Below are positions 20,154 through 38,256 of a stretch of 64,000 nt of DNA, in pieces. Each line of letters begins with the position of its first letter. The stretch's first letter is position 1. The stretch lies in assembly GCA_016932415.1 (NCBI GenBank), contig JAFGCX010000010.1:248001-312000 (forward strand). The letters run 5' to 3'. The translations under genes were made by a program, and so were the position numbers. The notes under the pieces were generated by a model that worked only from the letters and a program-made list of their open reading frames with translations, made no database searches and had not been told where the DNA came from. Origin of the DNA: Candidatus Krumholzibacteriota bacterium. GTDB lineage: Bacteria; Krumholzibacteriota; Krumholzibacteriia; Krumholzibacteriales; Krumholzibacteriaceae.

Positions 20154-20603
20154 GTGAAAAGCAATATAACGGTCATCGGGGCTATTCATATCGCGTGGGG
20201 TCTGCTTGGAATGCTCCTGGCGATGATAATTCAACTCACGCTGGGCGGCGCCGGTATGATAACGGGCGACTATGAAGTGCAGAGGATCCTTGCGATAGTG
20301 GCTTCCAGCCTCGCTTTTCCCCTCTTTATTCTCGGTATTCCGGCCCTTGTCGGTGGGATCGGAATACTCAGGATGCGTCCATGGGCGAGGATTCTTCTTC
20401 TGGCCTACAGTTTCATAAACCTTCTCAGCATACCTTTCGGTACCGTCCTTGGAATTTTTACGATCAAACTGCTTCTGGACAGGGATACGATCGAGGCGTT
20501 CGCTATCGAGAACGGGGCGTTGGCAGGATATGCGGGCGAAAGAAGAGCGGCCCGGTCAGAATCTGTATCCTCCACTGAAGAAGATGATGACATCGTGTCT
20601 TGA
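20154..20603 (+). CDS. Small integral membrane protein, paralogue 2
   Basis: A 149-residue four-segment membrane protein starting at GTG with AAAGGAGAGA upstream. The first 115 residues match its neighbour at 19684 (GGAGMITGDYEV; SIPFGTVLGIFTIKLL). It has an extra hydrophilic tail of about 30 residues ending in a run of serines and acidic residues. Its last 48 bases overlap the 3' end of the convergent patatin/Omp85 gene, which is unusual for real gene pairs but both frames are well supported. Function unknown. Confidence 0.76.
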   Translation: MKSNITVIGAIHIAWGLLGMLLAMIIQLTLGGAGMITGDYEVQRILAIVASSLAFPLFILGIPALVGGIGILRMRPWARILLLAYSFINLLSIPFGTVLGIFTIKLLLDRDTIEAFAIENGALAGYAGERRAARSESVSSTEEDDDIVS

Positions 20604-22802
20604 ACTGTTGGCGACGGATGCTTCCAGAGGACCTATCGGAGAATCGAATCCAAGCGTAACGGCAGAGCCGAAATAAAGATCATCCTTTACAAGCAGTTCA
20701 TTCCACCTGTCGACGGCATTTCCCGCGTTGCCATGCATGACCAGGTAAAGGTACCGCATCGGCTGGAACTGGAGTTCAAGACCTGCCACGACCGCGTGAC
20801 GGCCTGATAACTCATACCGGTGGTATCCGTAAAGATTCATCTCACCGGGAGAATGGAAGGTAAACGGCGCCCACGCTCCCCCGGCAAAATACTGATATTG
20901 CAGAGGCAACCGGTCTCCCCTTGCCGAACCGATGTTGCAGCGTCCGCCGAGAACGATCCGATCACGCAGCGGTATCCGGAAAGAAAGCCGCCCGCTCACT
21001 CTGTTGAACGAGCGTCCGTTCTCAAGCCACGATCCGGCGATCTGGGCGTCGAGTCTCATCATGATTCCACTGCGGGGAAACCATGTGCGATCAAGATTGT
21101 CGAAATAGATCCCCGAGTCGAGAAAGATAAGCTTGTCCCATTCGACATTTGACCCGGGGGGGGCTATATCCGGCGAGATGCGAGACCATTCGGAGACGAT
21201 GCTCGCCGTCGAGGAGATGTAACGCGACAGGGAAAGACCTGTTCCCGCCGAAGCGCGGATATCGTCTGCTTTCAGCCTGCTGACAAGATTGCTTCTATCG
21301 TAGATATCTATACGGTCATGGATGTAATCGGTTCCAAGATTGAAATGGAGGATATTCTTGAATCCTTTTCTAAAACTCAACATCGATCCGACCCTGAGCC
21401 TGCTTCCAATCATGATATCAAGGTCCAGCTCCGATCCCTTCGTGAGTGGATCATGGATGTCAAGGGCGATAAGCAGGGAGTGCCTTGATATAGTATCGTA
21501 ATACAACCCTATATTGAGAAAATCCCTTTTATCCTCTTTGAGGTAGTAAAGGAGTGAAATACCACCGGCCGTTCTTTTCAGCCTGTACCTTACGTATTCG
21601 AAGGCTCCCGTCCCGAAGAGCCTGCGGGTAGCCCTGTCGAGTATCGAAGCGTCGACGATAGCGGGAGGTTCTATGCCGAGGGTGGATTTTATTGCTTCTT
21701 CAGATATCATTTCCTCGCCAATTATCGATATTTCGGTTATCTCTAGCGGATAGTCGGAAGTTCCCTTCATCCGGGGAGGATCATATTCCCATCGAGACAT
21801 CGAATCGGCAAGCTCGTCGAGGCGCGCCGAGATCTTCCTTGCCGCATCTTCACCGGCTCTGATTATCTCGGAGGTTTTCATGAAATCGATCACGGTGAAT
21901 TTCTCAAGGTCAGGCGCTATCAGGATATCACAAAGTGATCCCTCTCTCTCGAGAGCGGGACGAAGGGTCAGCAGCACTGACTGGGTTATGATTTCTATCA
22001 TCGTGTCAATACTGTCGGCGGAAAGGGGTCTTAATCCCGTATTGACTCCTATGATAATATCAGCACCCATTTCTCTCAGGTCTTCCACTGGAAAATCCCT
22101 TGAAAGAAACCCGTCAACGAGCAACCGGCCGTTCATTCTGAATGGAGTGAATACCCCGGGGATCGACATGCTAGCTCTCATAGCGTCTGGAAGGAATCCC
22201 CTGTCCAGGACGACAGCTTCGCCTGTTTCTATATCTGTGGCCAGACAGCGGAATGGACGGGGAAAATCGGAAAAATCGTTGATGAGATGCGCCGGCCACG
22301 CCAGCCGCGAGAAAAGCATGTGAATACTCTGACCCGATTTGATTCCTGGAAGGAAGTCGACCTTCTTCCCCTGGACAGTGAATCTCACCTGGTATCTTTC
22401 CTCGGAATCTCTCTTATAGACGGGGATAGTAGTCCTGTCAGGTTTTTCCTTGAAGAGATCCATCCAGTCGGTCCCGGAGACCGCGTCCTCTATTTCGTCG
22501 GGTGTATAACCTATGGCGAAGAGCGCTCCAACTACCGCCCCCATCGAATTTCCTGACACGATATCTACAGGTACGCCATGCTCCTGAAGCACTCTGAGGA
22601 CTCCTATATGAGCCAGTCCGAGAGCACCGCCCCCGCTCAACGCCACCCCTACTTTTGGCCGCCGTTGGGCGACCGGTTGTTCGGGAGCCGATCCTGTAAC
22701 CCGCCGGGTTAAAGCGTCTTGTCCTGCTGAAAGATAAGCGGGAGAAGCGATGAGCAGTGCGAGTGATATGGTCAATATCCATCTTCGCCGTCTGTAAGTC
22801 AT
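20556..22802 (-). CDS. Patatin-Omp85 fusion (PlpD-like outer-membrane lipase)
   Basis: A 748-residue exported protein with a signal peptide (about 1-27). The patatin domain (about 50-330) has the oxyanion loop SGGGALG, nucleophile Ser86 in GNSMG and partner Asp230 in LLVDGFLSRD. A POTRA-like segment (about 350-420) and a 16-strand Omp85-type barrel follow, ending in FFSGGYRF with the terminal Phe of outer-membrane barrels. PlpD-type proteins carry a lipase on the outer membrane (type Vd autotransporters). The gene lies 46 bases after the second ABC-2 permease gene on the same strand, so it may be the last cistron of the export operon. Co-transcription is inferred from spacing only. Confidence 0.9.
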   Translation of the reverse strand: MTYRRRRWILTISLALLIASPAYLSAGQDALTRRVTGSAPEQPVAQRRPKVGVALSGGGALGLAHIGVLRVLQEHGVPVDIVSGNSMGAVVGALFAIGYTPDEIEDAVSGTDWMDLFKEKPDRTTIPVYKRDSEERYQVRFTVQGKKVDFLPGIKSGQSIHMLFSRLAWPAHLINDFSDFPRPFRCLATDIETGEAVVLDRGFLPDAMRASMSIPGVFTPFRMNGRLLVDGFLSRDFPVEDLREMGADIIIGVNTGLRPLSADSIDTMIEIITQSVLLTLRPALEREGSLCDILIAPDLEKFTVIDFMKTSEIIRAGEDAARKISARLDELADSMSRWEYDPPRMKGTSDYPLEITEISIIGEEMISEEAIKSTLGIEPPAIVDASILDRATRRLFGTGAFEYVRYRLKRTAGGISLLYYLKEDKRDFLNIGLYYDTISRHSLLIALDIHDPLTKGSELDLDIMIGSRLRVGSMLSFRKGFKNILHFNLGTDYIHDRIDIYDRSNLVSRLKADDIRASAGTGLSLSRYISSTASIVSEWSRISPDIAPPGSNVEWDKLIFLDSGIYFDNLDRTWFPRSGIMMRLDAQIAGSWLENGRSFNRVSGRLSFRIPLRDRIVLGGRCNIGSARGDRLPLQYQYFAGGAWAPFTFHSPGEMNLYGYHRYELSGRHAVVAGLELQFQPMRYLYLVMHGNAGNAVDRWNELLVKDDLYFGSAVTLGFDSPIGPLEASVANSSRHDVIIFFSGGYRF

Positions 22803-22848: not shown

Positions 22849-23553
22849 CTAGATGAATTTTTCTCTTTTTTGAAGATTAAGAAGGCCGTACAGAATTGCC
22901 AGCAGAGATCCGACAGAGAGGTATATCCTGTTCTTCAACACTGTAGCGGCATAGACAGCTTCGTTTTCCTGCGTGGAGAACGGGTTGAGGAAAAGGTTCC
23001 ATTTGCTGTTTTCAAGCGGTTCGACAAATATCCAGAATGCCATGCCGATGACTATCATTATTACGGCAGTGCCGTTGCCGTTTTTGACGAGGGTGGAAAA
23101 CATGAATGACAGACAGCCCAGGAAGAATATGGGAAACATGAGGTGGTAGACCATATCGATTATCGGTACTCCGACAAGGGCAACGGAACTAATGATCGTC
23201 AGGGCGGTCAGTATAAGAAAGACTATCACCCATATAAGCATCATCCTTATGCCCCAGACTTTGTAACGGTAATCGGGTATTCCAAAAAGGATCTCGATCA
23301 TCCTCGAATCGACATCGTTCTGTATCCCGAAGACGCTTGGATAGAAAATCAGCAGTATCCCTGGAAAAAGAAGGAGGTTGTATATCGTTCCCGAATCGGG
23401 ATCGGAATCGGAATTAAAGAAAATGATCGCCGCCACAAGAAGAAAAAAGAGAAATGAGGCTAGAAGGAAATAAACGAATTTGTTGGCGAAAATGATCTTA
23501 AGGTTGTATTTGGACAGTCTCATGACAATATCTGCTGAATTTCTTATTTTCAT
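22849..23553 (-). CDS. ABC-2 type permease (second permease of the cluster)
   Basis: A 234-residue membrane protein with six hydrophobic segments, starting at the ATG at 23553 (GGAGGTG upstream), which overlaps the stop of the RND-ABC fusion by four bases (ATGA). Longer N-terminal extensions are possible but would overlap more. The order of segments, the soluble loop VDSRMIEILFGIPDYRYKVW after the second segment, and the final pair of helices fit ABC-2 permeases. It is probably the membrane partner of the ATPase domain fused to the upstream RND pump. The substrate is unknown. Confidence 0.85.
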   Translation of the reverse strand: MKIRNSADIVMRLSKYNLKIIFANKFVYFLLASFLFFLLVAAIIFFNSDSDPDSGTIYNLLLFPGILLIFYPSVFGIQNDVDSRMIEILFGIPDYRYKVWGIRMMLIWVIVFLILTALTIISSVALVGVPIIDMVYHLMFPIFFLGCLSFMFSTLVKNGNGTAVIMIVIGMAFWIFVEPLENSKWNLFLNPFSTQENEAVYAATVLKNRIYLSVGSLLAILYGLLNLQKREKFI

Positions 23554-26500
23554 CTCGCACCTCCGGTTGCCAGGAGCCACAGATAGGAATCCTCAAGGGA
23601 CGGACGGACCTGTTCAGCGAGCGGGTGGGGTTTTGCCTCCGAGAGGGATCTGACCCTTATCTTGCTGCCGTCGCGCATATGATGGACGATCATCATCTCT
23701 TTCCTGATCTTCTCAAGTTCTCCGGGATCGGCATCAAATTGCCATACGTGTCCTTCGGCTATTTCGACCATTCTGGACGGGTCATCGAGATATACGAGCT
23801 GCCCCTTGTTCAGTACTGCGACTTTGTTGCAGGAACTGTATATGTCCTCGATGATGTGAGTCGAGAAGATGACTACTCTTTCGCGGCTAAGTTCGACAAG
23901 CAGGTTGCGGAATCTTATCCTTTCTCTCGGATCGAGACCCGCGGTAGGTTCGTCTACGACGAGTATCCGGGGAAGATGAAGCAATACCTGCGCTATACCG
24001 ATCCTCTGTTTCATCCCGCCGGAAAATGAACTTATCGCTTGATGGCGGCTTTCCTCCATATGCACCATCGCCAGGACCCTGTCGACCATTTCTTCGCGAT
24101 GATCCTTGTCCGTAAGGCCTTTAAGGACCCCCTGGTAATTGAGGAATTCCCACGCTGTGAGGTTTTCATACATCCCGAATTCCTGGGGAAGGTATCCGAT
24201 CAACGATTGAAGCTCTTCACGTTTTTCATTAATATCTATTCCGTTTATGTCGATCCTGCCGTAACTCTGATCGAGGATTCCGCATATGATCCTCATGAGA
24301 GTCGTCTTGCCGGCGCCGTTCGGTCCGAGAAGACCGAACATGCCTTTTCCGATCTGAAGAGATACTCCCGAAAGGGCCATGAACGATTCCTTTTTCTTCC
24401 CGATCAACGGGATCGATCTTACAAGATAGTAGAAGGCTTTTCTGAGTCCCCCAAACCGCCCCGATATCCTCGCGATATTGACCTGGTCCCTATGCAGCTT
24501 TCCGGCCGTCGAGTATACGATGAGGGCGAAATACCAGAGGAAGGCTACAAATATAAGGGCGGGGATATTTTTCCATCGTATCCAGAAAATCATAAGATTG
24601 ATCAGGGGTATTCCCCAGACGATCGTCTTTTCGCACAGAATCGTCAATTTCATGGCTAGTCCCGCGCCTCTTCCGCCGGAATGAACCGTGATAAGACGGG
24701 GTAACGGTCTCCATAGCATCAGTATATAAAAATATACGGTGTGTGAGAGAAGGAATATCCAGAATGGGCTGTCGAGGTATGAATAGATGAAATAGATCAT
24801 GAAGAAAAGAAGAGGTATTTTCCAGAGCATGCTGCCGCGGTCGAAAAGGTTATTTTCCTCTCCCGGTTCGTTAACTGTCCTTTTCCTGCGATTCTTTCCC
24901 TTGTTCCATTCCCTGATGAATCTTGATGGCTGGTCGTATATCTTGACGAGGTTCCTGATAGTGATCGATATCGGTTCATCTGCCGGTATGATGTTCTTCC
25001 TTGCCGTATGCAGGCTTGAGAGTACGAACCATGTCATGCCGGGTATAATGAAGATCAGGGTGGCCAGAAAGACCATCTGCCAGATAGTACCCGAGACCCT
25101 GGAATATATCGTCAGGGATCCCAGAAGGAAGGCTGCGATCTGCATTGATTTTATTTTCCAGTGGAGAGACCGTGTCCAGGAGAGGACCGATTCGAGTCCC
25201 GAAAATACTACCGGAATGAATATCAGTGTAAAAAGGGTGCTGAGCGTCAATCCTCCGATAACGGTTATGGCGAAAGGAGCGCCGATCAGAGTGATCTCGT
25301 CCGCTTTTCCCATAGCCAGCGGGATCATCGCCGCTATTGTCGTTATGGCCGTGATAAGTATCGGCCTTGTCCTGGCCCTCCCCGCGACCATAAGCGCCCT
25401 TGATCTGCCGTAACCTCTGCGCATGAGTATAAGAGAGTAGTCGATAAGGATGATACCGTTGTTTACCACGACTCCAAGCAGGATCAGGAACCCGGTAAGG
25501 GTATAGGCGTTCAGCAGAGATGTCCCGGTCGCGATAAGAAGCCAGAACGATCCTATCGCGGCAAGCGGGATCGTAAACATCATCACGACCGGAGTAGACA
25601 GGGATTCGAATACCGACGCGAGGATCATATAGATAAGTATGAAAGCTACAAGGATAAGAAATTTGAATTCGCTGTAGTCATTTTCTTCATGCACGACTTC
25701 GATGGCAAGTCCGGCAGGTATGACAAGGGATGAGACCAGTTCATCTATTTCGAGCCGCGACGCTTCGAGAAGACTTTTTGAACTGTTGACGTCGGAATTG
25801 AACTGGAAGGTGATCTCTACCTGTTTTTCCTGATTGACCCTGCTGATCGTAGGCATGCCATGGGAGTATATAATTCTGCTGAGATTCTCCAGGTCGACCT
25901 GGTTTCCCGCCTGGCCGCTGATCTGAAGCGCGCGAAGGTCCTCGATATCGCTTTCTTCCTGGTTTTTCTTGCTGATCATTATATCATAGGTGTCCGTCCC
26001 CTGTCTGAACTGCATGCGTGATGAATATTCGTTCTGGAAGGAAGTGAGTTCCGAAGCTATCGAGGCCAGGGTTATTCCGTAATAACTCATTACCCGGGTG
26101 TCGAACAGAAGGTGTATCTCCGGCCTGCTTTCTGAAATATTCATTCCGGCCGATGAGATGGTGGAAAGATTGTCGAGATAATATTCGATATTCCCGGCAA
26201 AATCCTGCATAACCTCAATATCGTTTCCCTTTATTACGATCTTTTCCTGCTGGGAGCCTATTCCGAACATCCTTTGCATCGCCTGGCCCATACCGCCTCC
26301 GCTGCCCCTGAACCGTCTGCTTGACTGGGGAGGGTCGAAACCGATGCTGCCTGACTGGACCTTGTCGAAACGGTTTCGGATATCCTCCTTTATTTCCTGC
26401 ATATCCCTGCCGGCTATCTCTTTGAAATCGTCTTTAAGGTTGATCGTTATGACAGCTTCTTCAGCGCGGATATCGCTGATCATTTCTTTTTTCTCTTCGA

Positions 26501-28262
26501 GAGATTCGAATCGTTGTTCAAGATCCGCGACAGTAAGGTCAGTCGTCTCCAGGGTGGAGCCCTCGGGCATCGTGATGTAGACGTTAAAACTCTCAGACTC
26601 CGCTTCCTCGGTGACATTGAGGCTTATTCCGAAGCAGATGATCACGCTGGCGAAGAAGATCACTACAGCGCCGATGATGGTCCGCAGTGGAAAACGAAGG
26701 CACGATTTCAGGAGAACATTGTATATTTCCAGGAGCCTTGTTCCGCCCTTTCCAGATTGGAAATCAGCAGAGTCTGCCGTCTTTCTTCTCGTCAGGAAAA
26801 AATGGGTTACCATCGGAACGAGGAGAAGAGCCAGCACGAGCGAGACGAGAAGAGTCGAGATGATCGACACGCCGATATGCTTCCCGATAAGCTGGATAAG
26901 GAAGTTCGAAGAGAAGATAAACGGGACGAAGACGATCACTGTCGTGATCGTCGCGGCAAATATCGAACGCCATACTTCTTTTACTCCCTGGATCACGGCG
27001 AAATCGGTCTCTTTTCCCGCGGATTTCAACCGGTAGATGTTTTCAAGCACTACTATGCTGTTATCGAGAAGCATCCCCACAGCCAGCGCCATCCCGACTA
27101 GGGTGAGGCTGTTGACCGAGATCCCGGCGGCGTAGAAAAAATTGAAAGCGGTGAAGACCGATATCGGTATCGCCAGGGCGATTATCAGTACAAGCCTGAG
27201 ATTCCTCAGGAAGACCCACAGGATCGAGATCGCTATAAGCCCTCCGATGATAGCGAGCCTGATGATCAGGTCGATATTCTTTTCCATTATCTCGGCCGTG
27301 TCGTTCTGGATTATCATTTCGATATCACGCGTGGCAAAGTTCTCGTTGAGCCTTGAGATGACATCCCGAGTCCTGTGCGAAAGATCTATAAGGTTGACCT
27401 GCGCGTCACGCACCAGATTGATCGTCACGGCATCCTTGCCGTTCACCCTCGATATCGATTCCTGTTCCTTGACGCCGAAATACACGTCGGCGATGTCCTT
27501 CAAAAGAACAGGGCCGTCTCGTAGCACGGTGATATTCTCTATGTCTCTGATATCCCTGTATTCGGCGACAACATTGACAAAATATTTGCTGCCCCCCTCT
27601 TTGACCTGTCCGACGAATGTGCTGGTAGCGCTGTTCTGCCTGATAAGCGAGCTTATTCTCGAAGGAGTTATTCCGTAGGCTTCGCAGGTCTCATCGTCGA
27701 GGATGATCTCCACCGATTTTTCAAGTCCCCCAGAGACATCAGCGTTGGAGATCCCGTCGATCGATTCGAGTTCTTTTTTTATTTCAGTGTCGACGATCTT
27801 CCTGACCCTGTCGAGTCCTCCTCCTCCGCGGACCTGGAGGTTCATGAACTGGTTCGATATCTGTTCAGTATCGACCTTGAATACCTGGACCGCGTAATTT
27901 TCCGGCAGGGAGGAGGAAGCGCTGGATATTTTTTCCTGTAACTTCAGGTAGGCGTATTTGATACTTGTGCCCTTGTTATAATATACCATGATCATCCCCG
28001 ACCGGGGATATATAGTCGATTCGATCCTGTCGATATCCTCAAGAGTTCCGATCGCTCCTTCAAGAGGGATGATCGCGTCCCTCTCCATATCGCCTGGATC
28101 AGTCTCCTGGTAGCTGTATACCTGGGCTATAAGGAAGGGCAGTTCCGCGTCGGGAAAGAGCTCGACGGGAAGCAGCCTGTACGAGACGAAGCCGAGCATC
28201 GTCAGCGCTATGAAGAACATGCTGATAAGAATCTTCCTGTTGATTATCAGGTTGCCCGTCAT
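23550..28262 (-). CDS. RND efflux pump fused to an ABC ATPase domain
   Basis: A single open frame of 1570 residues. Residues 1-1030 are a complete RND permease: GNLIINRKILISMFF in helix 1, a large periplasmic loop, GMLLDNSIVVLENI with the conserved Asp of the proton relay, a second periplasmic loop, and GRARTRPILITAITT near the end. After two more hydrophobic segments comes ISITIRNLVKIYDQP (near 1100), which resembles the first strand and A-loop Tyr of an ABC ATPase. About 180 residues with further membrane segments follow. The ABC core then resumes with [12 protein letters not shown] (Walker A near 1313-1321), FSGGM (1413-1417), ILVVDEP (1433-1439) and the STH His loop. The start at 28262 overlaps the upstream RND stop (ATGA); an upstream start at 28295 is less likely. 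Confidence 0.93.
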   Translation of the reverse strand: MTGNLIINRKILISMFFIALTMLGFVSYRLLPVELFPDAELPFLIAQVYSYQETDPGDMERDAIIPLEGAIGTLEDIDRIESTIYPRSGMIMVYYNKGTSIKYAYLKLQEKISSASSSLPENYAVQVFKVDTEQISNQFMNLQVRGGGGLDRVRKIVDTEIKKELESIDGISNADVSGGLEKSVEIILDDETCEAYGITPSRISSLIRQNSATSTFVGQVKEGGSKYFVNVVAEYRDIRDIENITVLRDGPVLLKDIADVYFGVKEQESISRVNGKDAVTINLVRDAQVNLIDLSHRTRDVISRLNENFATRDIEMIIQNDTAEIMEKNIDLIIRLAIIGGLIAISILWVFLRNLRLVLIIALAIPISVFTAFNFFYAAGISVNSLTLVGMALAVGMLLDNSIVVLENIYRLKSAGKETDFAVIQGVKEVWRSIFAATITTVIVFVPFIFSSNFLIQLIGKHIGVSIISTLLVSLVLALLLVPMVTHFFLTRRKTADSADFQSGKGGTRLLEIYNVLLKSCLRFPLRTIIGAVVIFFASVIICFGISLNVTEEAESESFNVYITMPEGSTLETTDLTVADLEQRFESLEEKKEMISDIRAEEAVITINLKDDFKEIAGRDMQEIKEDIRNRFDKVQSGSIGFDPPQSSRRFRGSGGGMGQAMQRMFGIGSQQEKIVIKGNDIEVMQDFAGNIEYYLDNLSTISSAGMNISESRPEIHLLFDTRVMSYYGITLASIASELTSFQNEYSSRMQFRQGTDTYDIMISKKNQEESDIEDLRALQISGQAGNQVDLENLSRIIYSHGMPTISRVNQEKQVEITFQFNSDVNSSKSLLEASRLEIDELVSSLVIPAGLAIEVVHEENDYSEFKFLILVAFILIYMILASVFESLSTPVVMMFTIPLAAIGSFWLLIATGTSLLNAYTLTGFLILLGVVVNNGIILIDYSLILMRRGYGRSRALMVAGRARTRPILITAITTIAAMIPLAMGKADEITLIGAPFAITVIGGLTLSTLFTLIFIPVVFSGLESVLSWTRSLHWKIKSMQIAAFLLGSLTIYSRVSGTIWQMVFLATLIFIIPGMTWFVLSSLHTARKNIIPADEPISITIRNLVKIYDQPSRFIREWNKGKNRRKRTVNEPGEENNLFDRGSMLWKIPLLFFMIYFIYSYLDSPFWIFLLSHTVYFYILMLWRPLPRLITVHSGGRGAGLAMKLTILCEKTIVWGIPLINLMIFWIRWKNIPALIFVAFLWYFALIVYSTAGKLHRDQVNIARISGRFGGLRKAFYYLVRSIPLIGKKKESFMALSGVSLQIGKGMFGLLGPNGAGKTTLMRIICGILDQSYGRIDINGIDINEKREELQSLIGYLPQEFGMYENLTAWEFLNYQGVLKGLTDKDHREEMVDRVLAMVHMEESRHQAISSFSGGMKQRIGIAQVLLHLPRILVVDEPTAGLDPRERIRFRNLLVELSRERVVIFSTHIIEDIYSSCNKVAVLNKGQLVYLDDPSRMVEIAEGHVWQFDADPGELEKIRKEMMIVHHMRDGSKIRVRSLSEAKPHPLAEQVRPSLEDSYLWLLATGGAR

Positions 28263-31200
28263 GATCTGACCCGATCCAGTACGGAATATACACAAGGTAT
28301 CACCAGAAGAGTGAGAATCGTGGATGTGATCAGTCCACCGATGACCGCCAGAGCCATCGGGGATCTGAGCGCGGCACCCTCGCCGAATCCGAGGGTCATT
28401 GGAAGAAGGGCGAGGATCGTAGTGGCGCTAGTCATGATTATCGGCCTGATCCTTCTGCGCCCCGCCTCGATTATTGCTTCTTTTCCTCCTACACCTTCCT
28501 TGCGAAGCCGGGTTATCGCGTCGACCAGTATTATGGAGTCGTTCACAGCGATTCCCACGAGCATGATCATCCCGATATATGCCATGATGTTGAGACTCTT
28601 GCCGAGAATGAAGAAGATAAGTACCGCCCCGACTCCCGCCAGGGGTATGGTCAGCAGGATCGAGAATGGATGGATGAGCGATTCGAACTGAGCTGCCATG
28701 ACCATGTAAACGAGTACTATTGAAAGGATCAGAGCGAATTTGAGATCGTTGAATTCCGATTGCCTTTTTTCCTCTTCTCCGGTTATCTCTATCTTGTACT
28801 CCGCAGGGAGTTCGATTCCCCCGATGTTATTCCTGATATCGGCGATCAGGTGGTCGAACGGCCGGCCCTTTCGCTGGTGGGCCGTGACGAACGCCGTACG
28901 GGCCTGGTTCCGCCTGTTTATCTCTTTGGGAGCATAGCTGTATCTGATATCAGCTATCTCGCTCAGCCGGATCTTTCCGTCACCGCCGTCGAGAGAGACA
29001 GACGAAAGTTCACCAAGCCCTATATCCGGAGTGCGGATAGTGATATCTTTCTTTTCCCCTCCATGGTCCCAGTAGCCGGCTTCTTTTCCGGAAAGGAGGC
29101 CCTCGAGCTGGGAACTGACCGAACTTACTCCGATGTCACTCATTCCCGCTCTCAACCTGTCGACGACTACTTCGACTTCCGGTCTCCCTTTCTCGAGGCT
29201 CGTCTCGATATTGTACAGGTCAGCGATATCGCCAAGTCTCATTTTTACGGTTTCGGTCAACTCCTCGAGGATCGCTATGTCGTCTCCCTCTATCTCTATT
29301 ACTACCGGGGCTGATTCGGCTCCGAGAGTGGCGAGCAGGGCGGTCTGATCCATCAGGATCTCCGATTCTATGTCGGGCAACGCGGCGATCTCCCTGCCGA
29401 GACCGGCAATCACCTTCTCATATTCCATGCCGCTTTCTTCGGCAAGAATGATCTTGATCGAGGCTGTGTTCTCATCCTGAAACACAGATTCTTCACTGCC
29501 ACTTATGCCGGCGACCGGACCTATCGTACTGAAAAGAGTCTTGACGTTCTCACCGAGGAACTGACGGATCATGTTTTCGACGCCCCTTACTGTTCCGACC
29601 GTCCTCTCGAGCTCGGTCCCTTCGGGAAGGTTCAACTTAATCGAGAACTCATTCATCCCGCTTCTCGGAATGAATTCGCTGCCGACAGAGGGGAGCAGCA
29701 GCCAGGCGGTCGCTACGAGCAGCGCCGCTGCGCCGATCACGATCCACCTGTGCCTGAGTGCTGAATCGAGAAGGTCGCCATACCATTGGAACCTGACCGA
29801 TTTTTCATTTTCTTTGCCGGCGCGGGGCCTTATGAATCTGCTGCACAGCATCGGGATCACAAAGATCGCCACGACAAGGGAAGATATCAGGGAAAAAGCC
29901 ACGGTCCATGCCTGGTCCTTGAAAAGTTCCCCAGAGGCGCCATGCAGGTATACTATCGGCAGGAAAACGACGATCGTAGTTATCGTCGAAGCTGTGATCG
30001 CTCCTCCGACCTGTGAAGCGCCGGTTATCGAGGCTTCCCGGACACTCATTCCCGATTCCATGTTCCGGACTATGTTTTCCAGGACCACTATCGCGTTGTC
30101 GACAAGCATCCCGGCTCCGAGGGCCAGCCCTCCGAGAGTCATGATATTGAGAGTGAGCCCGTTGAAGTACATCAGGTTGAATGTCGCGACGACGGATATC
30201 GGGATCGCCATGCTCACGATAAGGGTAGTCCCAAGCCGCCTCAGGAAGATATATAGTATCAGTATGGCGAGGAATATTCCTATCATCGCGGTCTGTTTGA
30301 CCTCATCGATCGCGCCCGTTATATATGATCCCTGATCCTGAATAACGACGATCTCATAACCCGGGAGGGCGTTGCCAAGTTTTTCGACCATTTCGTGGAG
30401 AGTCTTTGAAGCCTCGACAGTATTGAATTTCATCTCCTTGTAGATTGAAAGCCCCAGGCATCTTTTCCCGTTATAAAGGACGACAGATCTCGGGTCCTTG
30501 TTAGTGAAGTCGATCGTTGCCACGTCTTTGAGGTAGACAGGCGTCTTTTCGCTTGATGGGGTCATTTCACCCGCTGCGGCACCTTCCCCGGCCCCGGCGG
30601 TCTTCCAGGTCAGAATAATATTTTCTATATCCTCTATACTCTCGAAGACGCTGACACCCTTGATAAGGTATCTCAGTCCCATCTCCGTGATCGAACCTCC
30701 CGACGCAGTCTGGTTATAGCTCATGATCCTGCTGGAAAGAATGTCGGGAGTAAGCCCGTACGCTTCGAGAAGATAGCTGTCAGTCATGATCACTACTTCT
30801 TTTTCTTCTTCTCCCGATATCTCCACGCCGGCGACGCCTTCCAGCCTGGTAAGTTCGTTGCGTATGTAGTTTTCAGCTACTTTTCTGAGCTCATCCATAT
30901 CGTCGATTTCGGGATGCATCAATCCGATCGTCATTACAGGTTCGGAATTCGGGTCGTGCTGGGTTATGGTGATCTCTTCGACGTCGTTGTTCTGGCTGAA
31001 ATCGGAAACGCTTTTCTGCAGGTCCAGAAAAGCTTCATCCATATCGGTGTCCCAGGAATACTCGACCGTTATCCTTGCCGATCCTACCCTGATCGCCGAC
31101 GAGACGCCGACGACTCCCCTGCTTCGGCTCGCCAGTGATTCTATCTGTTCGACGTAATCCTTTTCGATCTCCTCGGGAGGGGCTTCCTGCGCCTTCAGCT

Positions 31201-31345
31201 CTATGTATATGCGTGGATTGTTCAGGTCGGGGAAAAGGTCTACTCCGAGCCTGTCGAACGAGATGATTCCGAGCAGGAGGATTCCGAGAACGAACATCAT
31301 GACTGTGACAGGATGATTGACTGAAAAATCGGATATTTTTCTCAT
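28259..31345 (-). CDS. RND efflux pump (AcrB/HAE-type permease)
   Basis: A 1028-residue inner-membrane pump of standard RND length. It has the N-terminal helix (SVNHPVTVMMFVLGILLLG), two large periplasmic loops, GMLVDNAIVVLENI with the proton-relay Asp in helix 4, and the C-terminal GRRRIRPIIMTSATTI. RND pumps exchange protons for drugs, lipids or other amphiphiles and act with an adaptor and an outer-membrane channel; both are encoded just upstream. Its stop overlaps the start of the RND-ABC fusion gene by four bases. The two pumps may pair as a heteromeric trimer, as MdtB and MdtC do (inference). Substrate unknown. Confidence 0.95.
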   Translation of the reverse strand: MRKISDFSVNHPVTVMMFVLGILLLGIISFDRLGVDLFPDLNNPRIYIELKAQEAPPEEIEKDYVEQIESLASRSRGVVGVSSAIRVGSARITVEYSWDTDMDEAFLDLQKSVSDFSQNNDVEEITITQHDPNSEPVMTIGLMHPEIDDMDELRKVAENYIRNELTRLEGVAGVEISGEEEKEVVIMTDSYLLEAYGLTPDILSSRIMSYNQTASGGSITEMGLRYLIKGVSVFESIEDIENIILTWKTAGAGEGAAAGEMTPSSEKTPVYLKDVATIDFTNKDPRSVVLYNGKRCLGLSIYKEMKFNTVEASKTLHEMVEKLGNALPGYEIVVIQDQGSYITGAIDEVKQTAMIGIFLAILILYIFLRRLGTTLIVSMAIPISVVATFNLMYFNGLTLNIMTLGGLALGAGMLVDNAIVVLENIVRNMESGMSVREASITGASQVGGAITASTITTIVVFLPIVYLHGASGELFKDQAWTVAFSLISSLVVAIFVIPMLCSRFIRPRAGKENEKSVRFQWYGDLLDSALRHRWIVIGAAALLVATAWLLLPSVGSEFIPRSGMNEFSIKLNLPEGTELERTVGTVRGVENMIRQFLGENVKTLFSTIGPVAGISGSEESVFQDENTASIKIILAEESGMEYEKVIAGLGREIAALPDIESEILMDQTALLATLGAESAPVVIEIEGDDIAILEELTETVKMRLGDIADLYNIETSLEKGRPEVEVVVDRLRAGMSDIGVSSVSSQLEGLLSGKEAGYWDHGGEKKDITIRTPDIGLGELSSVSLDGGDGKIRLSEIADIRYSYAPKEINRRNQARTAFVTAHQRKGRPFDHLIADIRNNIGGIELPAEYKIEITGEEEKRQSEFNDLKFALILSIVLVYMVMAAQFESLIHPFSILLTIPLAGVGAVLIFFILGKSLNIMAYIGMIMLVGIAVNDSIILVDAITRLRKEGVGGKEAIIEAGRRRIRPIIMTSATTILALLPMTLGFGEGAALRSPMALAVIGGLITSTILTLLVIPCVYSVLDRVRS

Positions 31346-31367: not shown

Positions 31368-32417
31368 TTATCGTATTACTTTGACCTTCGACCGGTTGCG
31401 AAGGGTCTCGAAACCTTTTATTACAAGGCGGTCGTCCTTTTTAAGGCCTTCGAGCACCTCGATCTCGTCGGGATTTTCAAGGCCGGTTATTATCATCCTT
31501 TCCTGCGCGGCCCCTTTTTCGACTATGAAGACTGTCTTGCCTCTCTGTTTTACCAGGATTATCTCTTTCGGGATGACTATAGTCGAGTCGTGCATCGCGA
31601 CTATGATCTCCGCCTTGACGAACATCCCCGGCCGCAGAAGGAGGTCATCATTTCTCACATCGATCGACGCTCTGAAAGACCTCGTTTCGGGGTCGAGGGT
31701 GGGGGAGACCTGCGTCACCTTTCCGCTCAGAGTATCGTCGGGGATCGCGTAGTTCATTATCCGTACGCTATACCCTGCCTCTATCTTTCCGAGGTCCTTT
31801 CCGGGGAGGGAGACCTCGAGGTAGAGGTCCGAATAATCCATTATCTGAACCATGATATTTCCGGCCTCGATCATCGTGCCGGAGGTATAATATGGAAGAG
31901 TGGTGATGATCCCGTCGAATGGAGCGGTTATGTCAAGTTTCGATTGCTGGATGAGCGCGTTATCGTAATCGTATCGCGCGTCCATATAAGTCCGCTCCGA
32001 ATTTTTGAGCTCAGTCAGGGTCACTCCGCCTTTCTCGTAAAGCGATTTCTGTTTTTCGAAATCAAGACGGGATGTCTCAAGGTTCAGTTTTCTGGAATCG
32101 ATCCGTATAGAGTTCTGTTCCTCGATGTTTTCCAGATGGATTATTACCTGGCCCTTCCTTACCGGATCTCCCAGGGACAGCTGGCGACCGGTGACCGGGT
32201 TGGTGAGCAGATGGTAGTCGCCTCTTTTTTCCGATTTAAGGGTAGCTTCTCTCGAGGAGTTCACCGTCCCCGTCGCTATACTGAACTGTTCGATAGATTT
32301 GAGTCTGATCTCTTCGACTGAGACGGGAGTCGATATCTCAGTCTCGACGCTATCGTCGTCTTTTCCGCATGATGAAAAGAGCAGGAAAGGTATAAGTATC
32401 AGGATTGTCTTCTTCAC
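31368..32417 (-). CDS. RND periplasmic adaptor lipoprotein (HlyD/MFP family)
   Basis: A 349-residue adaptor. I choose the GTG at 32417: it has AAGGAG upstream and gives a clean lipoprotein signal (KKTILILIPFLLFSSCGK) with the lipidated Cys at residue 17. The longer frame would bury it. The usual parts follow: a lipoyl-like domain with SLGDPVRKGQVI, an alpha-hairpin of about 60 residues (IDSRKLNLETSRLDFEKQKS), a second lipoyl half (DITAPFDGIITT) and a beta-barrel with RPGMFVKAEIIV. It links the inner-membrane pump to the outer-membrane channel encoded 26 bases upstream. Confidence 0.94.
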   Translation of the reverse strand: MKKTILILIPFLLFSSCGKDDDSVETEISTPVSVEEIRLKSIEQFSIATGTVNSSREATLKSEKRGDYHLLTNPVTGRQLSLGDPVRKGQVIIHLENIEEQNSIRIDSRKLNLETSRLDFEKQKSLYEKGGVTLTELKNSERTYMDARYDYDNALIQQSKLDITAPFDGIITTLPYYTSGTMIEAGNIMVQIMDYSDLYLEVSLPGKDLGKIEAGYSVRIMNYAIPDDTLSGKVTQVSPTLDPETRSFRASIDVRNDDLLLRPGMFVKAEIIVAMHDSTIVIPKEIILVKQRGKTVFIVEKGAAQERMIITGLENPDEIEVLEGLKKDDRLVIKGFETLRNRSKVKVIR

Positions 32418-32443
32418 TTCGGGCTCCTTGCTTGAAACCGTTT

Positions 32444-33919
32444 TCAGTCTGTGACCAGCGATTTGTTCAGTTCGAAATCCCACAGGGACTGGATCTTCAT
32501 GTCCAGAATGTACTGTTTGTATTTGATCAGGGCGGAGACTTCGTTAAGCCTCGTTTCGGACAACTGGGTCTGAAACTGGTTCAACTGATAACTGGAAAGG
32601 TCTCCGTTCCGGTATTTTTCAAGGTTGATCTCGTAGGTCAGCTGCGAACGCCGCACGTTCTGCCTTGCGATATCTATCTGTATCATCTGATTCTCGAGGT
32701 TCCTGTAAGCCTGGCGGATCGAGATCAGGATATTATCCTTTTCCTGTTCGAGCGAAAGTCTGTTCGATTCCAGGGAGGCCTGCGAAGCTCTCATCTCCGC
32801 CTTCTTTTCGCCCCAGTCCCAGATCGGCATCTCGAACATCACGGAGACCTGCTGGTTCTTGTCCGGAGCGTCATACAGCTCCCTGAACACTTCATTTGTC
32901 CCTATCGATCCGTACGACAGGGAGATGTTTCCCAAAAACTCGTTTTTCGTCCCTGCCCGCACCAGGGCGTTTTCAGCGTTCTCAATCGCGATCTGTCTCT
33001 GCCTCAGTTCCGCCCTGTGGCGGAGTCCGTTTGCTATAGCGGTCTGAAGATCGACAGCTATATTTTTGTACGTGATGTCGGCGGATATTTCGATATCGTC
33101 GTCGAGAGGGATCCCGAGGAGCTGTTTGAACAGGTCATGGGCGTCTTCAAGACTGACTTTCTGGTTCTGCAGGGAGGATCTTGCGTTAGCCATATTAAGC
33201 TCGGCCTGGTAAAGTTCCTCGAGACTCGCGATCCCGGCGTCGACCTTGTTTTTGCTTATCTCATAACTGACTTCGTTGTTCTTGTACTCCTCGACCGCGA
33301 TCTCAAGGCGCATCTTGGTCTCGTACACCGCGTAGAAACGCTCCATTACCGATTTTTCTATCGCCAGTTTTTCAAGGGCGTAAGCGAGCTGTGAATTCTC
33401 CAGTTCGAGTTCAAGGGTCCTGAGGTCCATTTTTGTCCGGTTATACGTAAAGATCGGCTGCTGAAACTGGATATAGAGGTTGTTCGAATATGTTTCACTC
33501 GACTCATCGGTGTATTCGCTGTAGGAATCTTTCCATGAAAAGCGGTTAATAAGCGACAGGGTGCCGTCCGTCCACTTGACCGGCTGGTCGATCCTGAACG
33601 TTCCGTAAGACTCCATTGTCTCCTGCCTGTACCATGTCGAGAAGATGTCGTTGAACTGGTTCGAGTTGGAGTAGTTGATCGGAGCTATCGACAGGCTGAA
33701 TCTTGACTTCAGCCTCGCGTTCGCCGCCCTGAGATTCGCTTCGCTTCTTTCAAGGCTTATCCTTGAATGCCTGATCCTCGGACTCTGTTTCATGGCGATT
33801 TCCAGAGCATCAGTTAGCGTCAGTACCTGTTGAGCCATCAGACCAGCCCCTGGATCGGTCATCAGAAACATTATGGCGAGAAAAAATGTCCCGGCGATCG
33901 CCGGGTTTCTTTTAAACAT
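32444..33919 (-). CDS. TolC-like outer-membrane efflux protein
   Basis: A 491-residue outer-membrane factor. I choose the ATG at 33919, which lies just after GAAAGGTG. A signal peptide (about 1-29, ending before QQVLTLTDALEIA) is followed by two repeats of the TolC fold, each with long coiled-coil helices. LTLTDALEIAMKQSPRI is the typical beginning, and the second repeat includes VSVMFEMPIWDWGEKKAEM. It forms the exit channel for the pumps encoded downstream and probably also serves the ABC components. It lies a few bases after the permease-M1 gene. Confidence 0.94.
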   Translation of the reverse strand: MFKRNPAIAGTFFLAIMFLMTDPGAGLMAQQVLTLTDALEIAMKQSPRIRHSRISLERSEANLRAANARLKSRFSLSIAPINYSNSNQFNDIFSTWYRQETMESYGTFRIDQPVKWTDGTLSLINRFSWKDSYSEYTDESSETYSNNLYIQFQQPIFTYNRTKMDLRTLELELENSQLAYALEKLAIEKSVMERFYAVYETKMRLEIAVEEYKNNEVSYEISKNKVDAGIASLEELYQAELNMANARSSLQNQKVSLEDAHDLFKQLLGIPLDDDIEISADITYKNIAVDLQTAIANGLRHRAELRQRQIAIENAENALVRAGTKNEFLGNISLSYGSIGTNEVFRELYDAPDKNQQVSVMFEMPIWDWGEKKAEMRASQASLESNRLSLEQEKDNILISIRQAYRNLENQMIQIDIARQNVRRSQLTYEINLEKYRNGDLSSYQLNQFQTQLSETRLNEVSALIKYKQYILDMKIQSLWDFELNKSLVTD

Positions 33920-33929
33920 GATCACCTTT

Positions 33930-36900
33930 CTAGCGTTTTACCCATTTTACAGCGTCGGCGATTATAAACCGTCCATTGTCAGATTTATCGGTCAGTTCGA
34001 CTGTCGCGGCCCCCTGAGAAATGTAATAGGATCCGAGGAAATTCCATCCGTCTTCCGATCCGTCAAGTTCCAACTGGGTCTCATCGACTCCATCGTCATG
34101 ATGGATCATAAAATTGTTACTTCCGTATTCGACCGTATCGTTATGCCGCCCCCACGGAGGCCTGATCCTGGAAATGTAAACATAAATATCGTAGTACCCG
34201 CTCTCTCCGAGCTCGGCGTTCCAGGAGACTTTCTTCGTTCCTTTTCCCACATTGGTAAAGTGAGCGGATCGGATATATTTCCCGTAGAATTTCGAATCGG
34301 TAGAGATCAGCCATCTTCCCGACGAGCGCCATGAGATCATGCCCACATATTTTTCCTCATCGGAGGGACCGATATCGGGAAGCAGTCTTCTAAGAAGACT
34401 TTTTTTCGAGGTCTTGTCGAATTTGAACCCAGGGTCCTCGTTGTCGATGATTATCTCTCCCGGTTCTCCGAGGGAGACTGTCTCGACGCCTTTTTTCTCG
34501 CCACTGAAAGGAAGGACTTTCTTTTTAAGCTCAAAATCTTCAAGTCCGACAGTTATGACTGATGGTATGTTTTTGGAAATAAGAGTGTTGATCTCGATAT
34601 TGCCGGGTTGGTAGTCGAGGACGAATCCAAGTTCCCTTGTCTCCCCGGCTTCGAGCCCGATGAACTCTTCCAGTTCATCATCGCGTTCGCTCCTCGGTAT
34701 CCTGGGACCGAAGAAACCGCCCCGTCCCTGTCCCATCCTTCTTTTCAAGGTTATCCTGAGCAGTCCCCTGACCGGCTCCGGATTACTTATCCGGGCCTTG
34801 ACCTGGTATCTTTCCCTGTCGCCGTCAAGCACCTTGTATGAATCGATGTTGCCGATCAGGAAACCGGGGAGTTGCCGGCTTTCGTACCAGTCATCGATCT
34901 GCGGCGCGAAATCGAAACCGAATCGCTCCCTGATCCTGTCGATAATCTGATCATCGGTCATCGATCCGAAACGGTTCTCTGTTATCAGACCCGAAAGAAA
35001 ATCGTTGAACTCCTCCTTTCCCAGGATACTTTCCAGGAGGAGAAAGAGATAATCCCCTTTTGCCTTGATCGCGAAATGCGCCAGGTCGCGTTTATCCCTG
35101 TCAGACATGATCTGTTGCAGAGTCTTTTCTCCCAGAGCGAGATTTATCCTTTCGTCGGGGGAGAGTCCCGTTATGAATCGTACAAATGAAGAGGGAGTCC
35201 CTTCCATCTTGCCGGCGTAATATGCTTCGAGCGCCATATTGAGGACAGGCCATCTTTCAGATCTGATATTGGTCGTGAAGGTAAGGAAGTTGGGAAAGAC
35301 GTTGTAGCTGGGAGCGAACGCGAATGGATTTTCATTGTCCCCGAAAGAAAAGAATCCGGAACTGCCGGTCAGGGTGGAATTGACGAAACGGGTCAGGTTG
35401 TCCGCCTGCTTTTCCGCGGGAGATGTCGTCTCGTTGCTTCTTTCCCTGCGTCTTTCCATCCTTCGCTGGATCCTTCTGAAATCAATAGCCCTGAAAGAGA
35501 GGCCTTTCTCGGGAAGAAGGACCAGTTCCGGCTGCACGATCTCCTGAGCGACAGACCACAGGTGCCGGTAGCTGAAAAAATGGGCCGGTACTTCTATCAT
35601 GGAGAACTGCTCGAAGGGGTAATCCAGCCCGAGTTCGTTTTCGGTCTCCTGTCGAAAATCGCGTATCATCACTCCCAGCGTATCTCCGATCTCGTTGAAA
35701 TATTCCGAGAAGAAATCGTGCCCCTTCTTTATGTAGATCGAATACTTTATCGAGTCGACGTTTACCGATATGGGGGAATAATCTCCGATCACCAGCGTCA
35801 TCGCCGGGATCGGGGACAAGGTTCGGAATGACCATTTGCCGGATGAACGATCCTTGCAGAATCCCTGGGAGACCGCGATCAGGTCCTCCCGCGTCTTTAC
35901 GTCGAGCTTGAAATATATGAAATCCTTCCGTGATATCTCGGGATGCGAAGGGCTGTACCCCGCTCCCGGAGTAGGATACCAGAGCGATTCGGGTGTCAGC
36001 AGAAGGAAATCATCGGTCATGTATGAATATCTCTTGCCCGGGCTCACCGGGCCGGCGTTGTCTATCCGGGCTATCTTTTCCCTGTCTTTTTCGAGGATAT
36101 CTGCATAGCAGGCATCTTCATCGATCGTCCCCCGGTATTCGACTGTGAAGGTGTCAGTAGCTCCCGGAACAAGGGGGGCGGCGGGTGAGATGACAAGCAG
36201 TTGGATATTCCTGGAGAATTCGATTTCTCCGCTCAACCCCCGGACCGATTCGACTTTAAGCCCGGGATTGAGCCTGAAGATATATTCGTCTATCACTGAT
36301 TCGGTCTGGTTCTCGATCTTCAGCGACGCCGTGGCCGAGATCTTTCCTCCAAGATGTTCCATATCTATCCTGCAGATCCTGGGAGTGACGACCGGTCTGT
36401 CTACCATCTCGTCTCCGATAGCGGCGATCCGTTCCCGCATCGAGACACCGGCGCTGATATCATTTATATACAGGAAAGCGAGAACAAGAGCGACTGCGAG
36501 AAAAGCGACCGCGCTTATCCTTGAGACTGCCGTCATCATCCTAGATTGGGGAAGACGCTTTATCATCAGGATCGTCACGCTTATGAATGAAAGGCCGAGA
36601 AAGAAGTAGATCGAGCGGTGCATTATCAGGCGGCAGGTGTCGCTGAATCCGGTGAAGTCCGAGTATAGAAGAGGCATGTTGTACGCCATGTAATCGAAGA
36701 GATGGTGAAATTTTTGAGAGAGATAGAAAAGAGTCAGGGCGATATACCCCAGTACCAGTATGAATGTGATCGCCTGGTTTCTGATAAGCACCATCATAAG
36801 AAAGGAGAGTCCCAGGATGAAGACCAGGGTCGGCAGGCTGATGATCAGCGGATAGATAAGGTATGATCCCCACATTATGCCTGTATCGCCCAGGATCAGA

Positions 36901-37298
36901 TGCATCGCCAGTGTAACGAGAAGGACGACGAAATTCAGGCAGAGGAAGATCATCAGTATCCCCGTGGTCTTCCCTATGACGTAATCGCCGTTTGTCATCG
37001 ATCTCATATAGACGACTTCGGTGGTATCAAGCTTCTTGTCTCTTTTGAGAAAGTCGGATGCGAGAAAAACCGCTATGACGGCCTGGACCGTGTTGAGAAG
37101 GAGGATGACTACATATGGGACAGTCGAGGGGATCGCTCTCATGCCCCAAGGTAGCGACGTGACGGGAGAGAGGACCGCGAAAGTCCAGAAACCGAGAAAC
37201 CCTATCGCGATCATCGAAAAGATCCTGAAAAACCAGCTTCGGAACAGTGTCTTGACCTCGATCCTGGCGACAGCCCAGATATTGTAAAGAGAGATCAT
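33930..37298 (-). CDS. ABC-2 permease fused to a degenerate M1-peptidase-like region and a golvesin-like domain
   Basis: A 1122-residue protein. Residues 1-285 hold six to seven membrane segments of an ABC-2 permease, with the soluble loop FLKRDKKLDTTEVVYMRSM. From about 290 it is extracytoplasmic and resembles the M1 aminopeptidase family: a beta-sandwich (RICRIDMEHLGGKISATAS), then a catalytic-domain-like region (SPSHPEISRKDFIYFKLDV). The zinc motif HExxH is missing; the matching place reads SVAQEIVQPE, so the region is probably not an active metallopeptidase. Residues 985-1122 resemble the golvesin/xanthan-lyase C-terminal beta domain (WNFLGSYYISQGAATVEL, IADAVKWV). The ATPase encoded upstream is the likely partner. 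Confidence 0.85.
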   Translation of the reverse strand: MISLYNIWAVARIEVKTLFRSWFFRIFSMIAIGFLGFWTFAVLSPVTSLPWGMRAIPSTVPYVVILLLNTVQAVIAVFLASDFLKRDKKLDTTEVVYMRSMTNGDYVIGKTTGILMIFLCLNFVVLLVTLAMHLILGDTGIMWGSYLIYPLIISLPTLVFILGLSFLMMVLIRNQAITFILVLGYIALTLFYLSQKFHHLFDYMAYNMPLLYSDFTGFSDTCRLIMHRSIYFFLGLSFISVTILMIKRLPQSRMMTAVSRISAVAFLAVALVLAFLYINDISAGVSMRERIAAIGDEMVDRPVVTPRICRIDMEHLGGKISATASLKIENQTESVIDEYIFRLNPGLKVESVRGLSGEIEFSRNIQLLVISPAAPLVPGATDTFTVEYRGTIDEDACYADILEKDREKIARIDNAGPVSPGKRYSYMTDDFLLLTPESLWYPTPGAGYSPSHPEISRKDFIYFKLDVKTREDLIAVSQGFCKDRSSGKWSFRTLSPIPAMTLVIGDYSPISVNVDSIKYSIYIKKGHDFFSEYFNEIGDTLGVMIRDFRQETENELGLDYPFEQFSMIEVPAHFFSYRHLWSVAQEIVQPELVLLPEKGLSFRAIDFRRIQRRMERRRERSNETTSPAEKQADNLTRFVNSTLTGSSGFFSFGDNENPFAFAPSYNVFPNFLTFTTNIRSERWPVLNMALEAYYAGKMEGTPSSFVRFITGLSPDERINLALGEKTLQQIMSDRDKRDLAHFAIKAKGDYLFLLLESILGKEEFNDFLSGLITENRFGSMTDDQIIDRIRERFGFDFAPQIDDWYESRQLPGFLIGNIDSYKVLDGDRERYQVKARISNPEPVRGLLRITLKRRMGQGRGGFFGPRIPRSERDDELEEFIGLEAGETRELGFVLDYQPGNIEINTLISKNIPSVITVGLEDFELKKKVLPFSGEKKGVETVSLGEPGEIIIDNEDPGFKFDKTSKKSLLRRLLPDIGPSDEEKYVGMISWRSSGRWLISTDSKFYGKYIRSAHFTNVGKGTKKVSWNAELGESGYYDIYVYISRIRPPWGRHNDTVEYGSNNFMIHHDDGVDETQLELDGSEDGWNFLGSYYISQGAATVELTDKSDNGRFIIADAVKWVKR

Positions 37299-37368: not shown

Positions 37369-38256
37369 TCAGTTATTCTTCGTAGTGTTATGCTCCATGA
37401 AATAAACATACGCGTGTTCGAGATTCGGATCGATCTCCGTTCCGGGATAACCGTCGAGCTCTTTTCCCACCACGTCGACTTCCCATCCGTTGGTGGAAGG
37501 AAAGGTCGAGATCACCGAATATCTGCTTTTAATATCCTCGAGTTCGCTTTCTACAGCTTCGATCCGCCATACGTGCCCCCTGGTCATCGTTATCAGTTCA
37601 GTGGGAGCTCCGCGAAAAACGACCCTGCCTCCGTCGAGAAGGGCCATGTTATGGCATGTGCTTGAGATATCTCCGACAATATGGGTCGACAGGATGATAG
37701 TCACGTTCCGGTGGCCCATATCGGCTATCAGGTTCCTGAACCTTATTCTCTCTTCCGGATCGAGACCCGTCGTCGGTTCGTCGACTACTATGATCTTTGG
37801 ATCTCCTATCAGGGCCTGCGCTATACCGAGCCTGCGCTTCATTCCACCCGAGAGTTTGTTTGCCTGCCGGTCCCTGACATCGAAGAGTCCTACCTGTTCG
37901 AGCATCTCATCTACCGCCCGGGTCCTTGTGGCCTTATTCTTCAGTCCGGCCAGGCTCGCCACGTAATCGAGGAATTCCCATGTCTTGAGTTTTGAAAAGA
38001 ATCTGAAATCCTGCGGAAGATAACCGAGCATGCTTCTGATCTCCCGCCTGTTTCTGAGGATGTCGAGACTGCCGAAACTGATATTTCCCGATGAGGCTTT
38101 CATCAGTGTCACGAGAATCCGGATCAGAGTGGTCTTTCCAGCGCCATTAGGTCCGAGCAGGCCGAACATTCCACTCCCTATCTCCAGATTCACGTCGTCC
38201 AGCGCCCGTTTCCCTCCCTTGTAGACCATGTTCAGTCCGTTTATGGAGATATTCAT
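37369..38256 (-). CDS. ABC transporter ATPase (first ATPase of the export cluster)
   Basis: A 295-residue ATPase with Walker [10 protein letters not shown] (35-43), signature LSGGM (135-139), Walker B IIVVDEP (155-161) and the His loop (LSTHIVGD). The tail after residue 215 is a short regulatory extension with RGHVWRIEAVESELEDI. It is clearly a paralogue of the ATPase fused to the RND pump: both share [14 protein letters not shown], GLDPxERIRFRNL, GHVW and a closing LE(D/H)xY segment. The pair therefore probably arose by duplication within the cluster. The start ATG has AAAGGACAGG upstream. It serves the permease-M1 protein encoded 70 bases downstream. Confidence 0.95.
   Translation of the reverse strand: MNISINGLNMVYKGGKRALDDVNLEIGSGMFGLLGPNGAGKTTLIRILVTLMKASSGNISFGSLDILRNRREIRSMLGYLPQDFRFFSKLKTWEFLDYVASLAGLKNKATRTRAVDEMLEQVGLFDVRDRQANKLSGGMKRRLGIAQALIGDPKIIVVDEPTTGLDPEERIRFRNLIADMGHRNVTIILSTHIVGDISSTCHNMALLDGGRVVFRGAPTELITMTRGHVWRIEAVESELEDIKSRYSVISTFPSTNGWEVDVVGKELDGYPGTEIDPNLEHAYVYFMEHNTTKNN

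Follow-up and report, generated by a model that had tools for sequence, protein, structure and literature searches.

A predicted pseudo-M1 ABC permease within a conserved ABC/RND/TolC gene cassette of Krumholzibacteriota and other bacterial phyla

M1 pseudopeptidases, zinc-intact fusions of ABC permeases with M1 domains and tripartite RND pumps are already known, and are the described systems to which the locus considered here is best compared. MdtABC-TolC (which uses two RND proteins) and AcrAB-TolC are tripartite RND efflux systems combining, as in the present cassette, RND permease, HlyD-type adaptor and TolC-type channel; they are not known to possess ABC subunits, whereas the second RND protein (RND2) of the cassette is fused to an ABC ATPase. 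RND and ABC pumps are normally regarded as separate classes with different energy sources. DrrABC and MmpL7, which are not known to involve TolC or HlyD or to carry an M1 or golvesin domain, are separate proteins, as opposed to the RND2-ABC fusion found here. Both of them, the former an ABC exporter and the latter a member of the RND family, take part in the export of a single lipid, PDIM (PMC11539658). As to the M1 fold, yeast Tma108 belongs to the M1 family, is counted as a pseudopeptidase and interacts with nascent polypeptides (PMC11266112); it is a soluble, ribosome-associated protein without a transporter domain, in contrast with the membrane permease described below. The zinc-intact ABC-M1 fusions (L018; L033, same genome) are homologous to our query in both the permease and the M1 domain (807 columns) and are likewise found beside a similar ATPase; they differ from it in keeping HExxH and the zinc Glu and in having two permease modules and, since they align only to query residue ~901, they show no golvesin tail. 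A search of the open-access literature for the pseudo-M1 ABC permease, the cassette or the RND-ABC fusion found nothing, and the cassette and the fusion are apparently undescribed.

The window, i.e., the whole stretch of 64,000 nucleotides that was analysed, contains at 33930..37298 a single open reading frame with an ATG start, uninterrupted in one frame, coding for a 1122-residue ABC-2-type permease/pseudo-M1/golvesin protein; all the features of the cassette given below by their window coordinates lie, like this gene, on the minus strand. NCBIfam has no family for this permease. In named GTDB genomes, at least 422 relatives were confirmed; the best 79 of these loci span six or more phyla (among them Krumholzibacteriota, KSB1, Latescibacterota, Calditrichota, Zixibacteria and Bacteroidota), and nearly all of these 79 align with the query from its first to its last residues. 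Among 58 related genomes, 16 carry orthologues of at least 41% identity, some of them partial at contig ends, and several carry paralogues of about 30% identity. The distribution of permease and cassette is patchy, as indicated by one Bacteroidota class in which only 2 of 198 genomes carry the permease; cultured and named carriers do exist (Mangrovibacterium lignilyticum, Carboxylicivirga mesophila, Gaoshiqia sediminis and Splendidivirga corallicola), so that experiments are feasible.

The AF2 model of the permease, built from 20 sequences (pLDDT 83.5, pTM 0.80), comprises three parts. The membrane part (residues 1-297; 36408..37298) is predicted to consist of an amphipathic helix followed by about 7 TM helices in an ABC-2-like arrangement (helices at 22-43, 59-93, 103-136, 143-172, 175-193, 221-245 and 253-297); its profile matches the permease of the active ABC-M1 proteins, the Pfam ABC2_membrane matches being weak, and the features of an ABC-2/type V exporter permease, namely about 6 TM helices and an adjacent gene for the cognate ATPase, are found. 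The second part, a periplasmic ectodomain (residues 298-904; 34587..36407), was assigned to the M1 fold by Foldseek, hhalign and hmmsearch. The original prediction had described this outer part as M1-like, and the structural comparison bears it out: the top PDB matches of the model are the M1 aminopeptidases IRAP, ERAP1, ERAP2 and PepN (best E 8.4e-20, prob 1.00), with TM-scores that are modest (0.3-0.4) and large rmsd values, partly because the query model includes the membrane and golvesin parts; the domain arrangement may differ from that of true M1 enzymes. Pfam Peptidase_M1 matches residues 728-802 only, below cutoff; hmmsearch matches the ectodomain to the cold-active aminopeptidase 3cia (E 3e-5), and hhalign of the family profile against nine HExxH-containing ABC-permease/M1 proteins, L033 included, gives E 1.6e-34 over the 807 columns. 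The third part, which had been likened to golvesin, is indeed a Golvesin_C-type beta domain (residues 948-1121; 33936..34457), with a match to Pfam PF25275 at residues 992-1120 (E 8.5e-14, 52.2 bits against a gathering cutoff of 31.6) that recurs in 20 of 20 family members, and a profile match to the xanthan lyase 6f2p (3.5e-11).

Judging from gene order, the permease gene does not stand alone: it provides one subunit within a conserved seven-gene ABC/RND/TolC cassette coding for an ATPase, the permease, a TolC-type channel, an HlyD adaptor, RND1, the RND2-ABC fusion and a small ABC-2-like permease; in the named loci scanned with the window's neighbour proteins, the first six occur in the same order and on the same strand. 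The counts that follow refer to those loci, from the best 79 of at least 422 relatives, that have enough flanking DNA. The partner ABC ATPase, a DrrA/GldA-like protein of 295 residues (37369..38256; Pfam ABC_tran 6.8e-30), lies upstream of the permease in 73 of 73 loci; it scores best against DrrA, its matches to TIGR01188 and TIGR03522 being below cutoff. Downstream are found the TolC-type outer-membrane efflux protein (493 residues, 32444..33925; Pfam OEP 8.2e-46; 74 of 75 loci), the HlyD/MFP periplasmic adaptor (371 residues, 31368..32483; Pfam HlyD_D23 5.7e-23; 62 of 64), RND permease 1 (1028 residues, 28259..31345; Pfam ACR_tran 1.6e-219; 55 of 58) and RND permease 2 fused to an ABC ATPase (1581 residues, 23550..28295; ACR_tran and ABC_tran; 50 of 53), so that RND, adaptor and channel, the gene set of a tripartite RND efflux system, are encoded together. 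The last gene codes for a membrane protein of 243 residues (22849..23580) that matches no Pfam family above cutoff and whose homologues were detected after the fusion in 15 of 18 genomes; it is taken from its sequence to be ABC-2-like, and is presumably the partner of the fused ATPase. No cassette protein matches MacB_PCD or FtsX and, unlike in the MacAB-TolC type, permease and ATPase are encoded by separate genes. Beyond the small membrane protein, the 18 downstream regions, searched with the window's own proteins, share no gene. Just downstream of the cassette, at 20556-22802, there is a gene whose product joins a patatin-like phospholipase to an Omp85-type domain; it was considered as an eighth member and discarded, being found, of the 18 downstream regions, in L187 alone, a region from a genome of the same family. 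Three KSB1 loci (L074, L079 and L090) and one of Caldithrix (L083) have a shortened cassette, some or all of the RND genes being absent nearby.

The fusion itself consists of one open reading frame in which an AcrB-like ACR_tran domain (residues 15-1032) is followed by ABC_tran (1309-1452). Long open frames span the junction in 16 of the 16 named genomes tested, and a frameshift or assembly error was rejected as its origin, the same frame being open in these genomes and in relatives. The fusion occurs in 13 of the 16 permease-bearing related genomes, the other three being MAGs that are 80-84% complete; it is absent from the 42 permease-less relatives, in which any match begins at residue 200 or later in the query of 536 residues, leaving the bulk of the TM insert uncovered. 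This insert, identified by alignment and in the AF2 model, comprises ~184 residues with about 4 TM helices (24384..24935) and lies between strands 1 and 2 of the ATPase, the first strand being IRNLVKIYD; in model numbering (to which 1045 is added to obtain fusion residues) the region shows strand 66-75, helices 108-128, 132-150, 166-196 and 199-225, and strand 260-270. The model has a pTM of 0.61, so that it is uncertain how the membrane insert sits with respect to the ATPase. The nucleotide-binding core (23553..24383), recognised by its conserved motifs and by Foldseek, conserves Walker A, signature and Walker B motifs, with GPNGAGK(T/S)T, SGGMKQR, VVDEPT.GLDP and STH across 26 sequences; in structure it comes closest to free ATPases, among them TM_1403 and NosF of the ABC transporter NosDFY, and NosF is a free-standing ATPase which, unlike the fused one, has no transmembrane insert. 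In both RND permeases the TM4 Asp is conserved, and the position that we take to be that of AcrB Lys940 (TM10), matched to AcrB by eye, is a conserved Asn; RND proton coupling may thus differ or be absent.

The reading that we favour, with moderate confidence, is that the pseudo-M1 permease works within a multi-engine trans-envelope exporter, as an ABC-2/type V-like subunit bearing a dead-M1/golvesin ectodomain. Such an exporter would be assembled from the ATPase with the pseudo-M1 permease, the small permease with the RND2-fused ATPase, the two RNDs, one HlyD and one TolC protein; the ABC subunits would move or extract an amphipathic substrate (a lipid, a lipopeptide or a glycan-like molecule) at the inner membrane, the ectodomain could act as periplasmic receiver of the substrate or as scaffold for its transfer, and the two RND proteins, together with the adaptor and the channel, would take it across the outer membrane, energy being drawn from ATP and an ion gradient. 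The predicted fold, the loss of the zinc ligands, the separation from the active homologues, the cassette and the fusion are shown by the data, whereas complex formation, direction of export, substrate class and the role of the ectodomain are inferred. In favour of the exporter speak these observations, the co-occurrence of the fusion with the permease, the conservation of cassette order across phyla, the intact motifs of the fused ATPase, the TM4 Asp of both RNDs and the known case of DrrABC and MmpL7, in which the two kinds of transporter cooperate on a single lipid. Against this exporter stand the patchy distribution of the cassette, the Asn at the Lys940 position, the loci without adjoining RND genes and the fact that, in the 18 downstream regions searched with the window's proteins, no conserved biosynthetic gene was seen beside the cassette as a clue to the substrate. 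A more specific possibility, put forward tentatively and rather less likely than not, is that the cassette represents a novel type of trans-envelope exporter with direct coupling between ATP hydrolysis by the ABC parts and pumping by the RND proteins, RND2 having its own, insert-split ABC motor and the dead M1/golvesin ectodomain passing the substrate on from the ABC side to the RND/TolC conduit; a conserved in-frame RND-ABC fusion in a TolC-type cassette makes such direct coupling testable.

The cassette could instead contain two independent transporters in one operon, a pseudo-M1 ABC exporter and an RND efflux pump, their synteny reflecting co-regulation, e.g., under envelope stress. In favour of this reading, the ABC/TolC part of the KSB1 and Caldithrix loci mentioned above has no RND genes, or no fusion, next to it; yet RND2 is covalently fused to the ABC ATPase in every lineage whose frame could be followed, the order is conserved across phyla, and in 3 of the 5 genomes with a split or shortened cassette the full RND2 fusion is found on another contig, so that it tracks the permease even there. 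We consider independence rather unlikely. A second possibility is that the ABC parts do not transport at all and serve as ATP-driven levers, as in MacB and FtsEX, gating or resetting the RND/TolC conduit via the pseudo-M1/golvesin ectodomain: the large periplasmic ectodomain of the permease and the ATPase fused straight to an RND subunit would suit this role, which is nevertheless improbable considering that ABC-2-type permeases with DrrA/NosF-like ATPases usually drive transport.

Within the exporter as proposed, the ectodomain is predicted, from its sequence and the model, to be a catalytically dead M1 peptidase fold. HExxH is absent from the query, as originally noted, and from the M1 active-site region in 86 of 86 family members; the sole HExxH string among the 86 is at residue 308 of the paralogue L020, far upstream of that region. 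The segment SVAQEIVQPE had been proposed as its degenerated form, a placement ruled out by profile-profile alignment with the zinc-intact homologues: the lost motif corresponds to A628-E629-K630-Q631-A632 (35403..35417), within a helix of the AF2 model (627-642), and residues 582-591 belong to a separate and highly conserved motif, SVAQEIVQPELVLLPE (residues 582-597; 35508..35555), of the form VQPE(L/I/M)VLLPE and about 40 residues upstream. The comparison with active M1 enzymes gave an M1 match, and the alignment of homologues at the zinc site revealed no complete site, so that neither of the two outcomes named beforehand as refuting the original prediction was seen. His is found at 628 or 632 in none of 81 family members, and the position of the third zinc-ligand Glu (NEG motif), placed at M688 by the 3cia profile alignment (the hhalign placement is unreliable there, owing to an insert), is Glu in none of 81; the position of the catalytic Tyr, before the KG motif, is K745, with Tyr in 1 of 81. 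Glu629, by alignment the former general base, is retained (72 of 81) while the zinc ligands are lost; Gln631 is kept in 69 of 81, Q589 in 78 of 81, P590, E597 and D952 in 81 of 81, and Lys-Gly at 747-748 is also kept. With E629 retained, P590 and E597 invariant and the zinc ligands gone, the pseudo-M1 domain seems to be strongly selected for a function other than zinc catalysis. The binding of a peptide or of a carried substrate is plausible. A reading in which the ectodomain remains active as a peptidase and has an unusual metal site, as the retained Glu629 and Lys-Gly might suggest, is scarcely credible, positions 628, 632 and 688 offering no conserved metal ligand (0 of 81 for His, His and Glu) and there being a Tyr at the catalytic position in just 1 of 81.

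A maximum-likelihood tree separates 33 pseudo from nine active sequences by one branch (support 100/100, an unrooted split). The genome that carries the query also codes for a zinc-intact ABC-permease/M1 protein (L191:7040-10651, on contig C7 of G000; HEIAHQW...GESLTQY), which adjoins an ATPase of its own and lacks RND, HlyD and TolC genes as neighbours. The pseudo-M1 ectodomain offers a family of bacterial pseudopeptidases for which one and the same genome supplies an active counterpart. The paralogues of about 30% identity in L019, L020, L021, L022 and L026 form a second group, again with no HExxH in the M1 active-site region, and one genome (G012:C4) has a paralogue of this kind in tandem, immediately upstream of the ATPase gene of the cassette.
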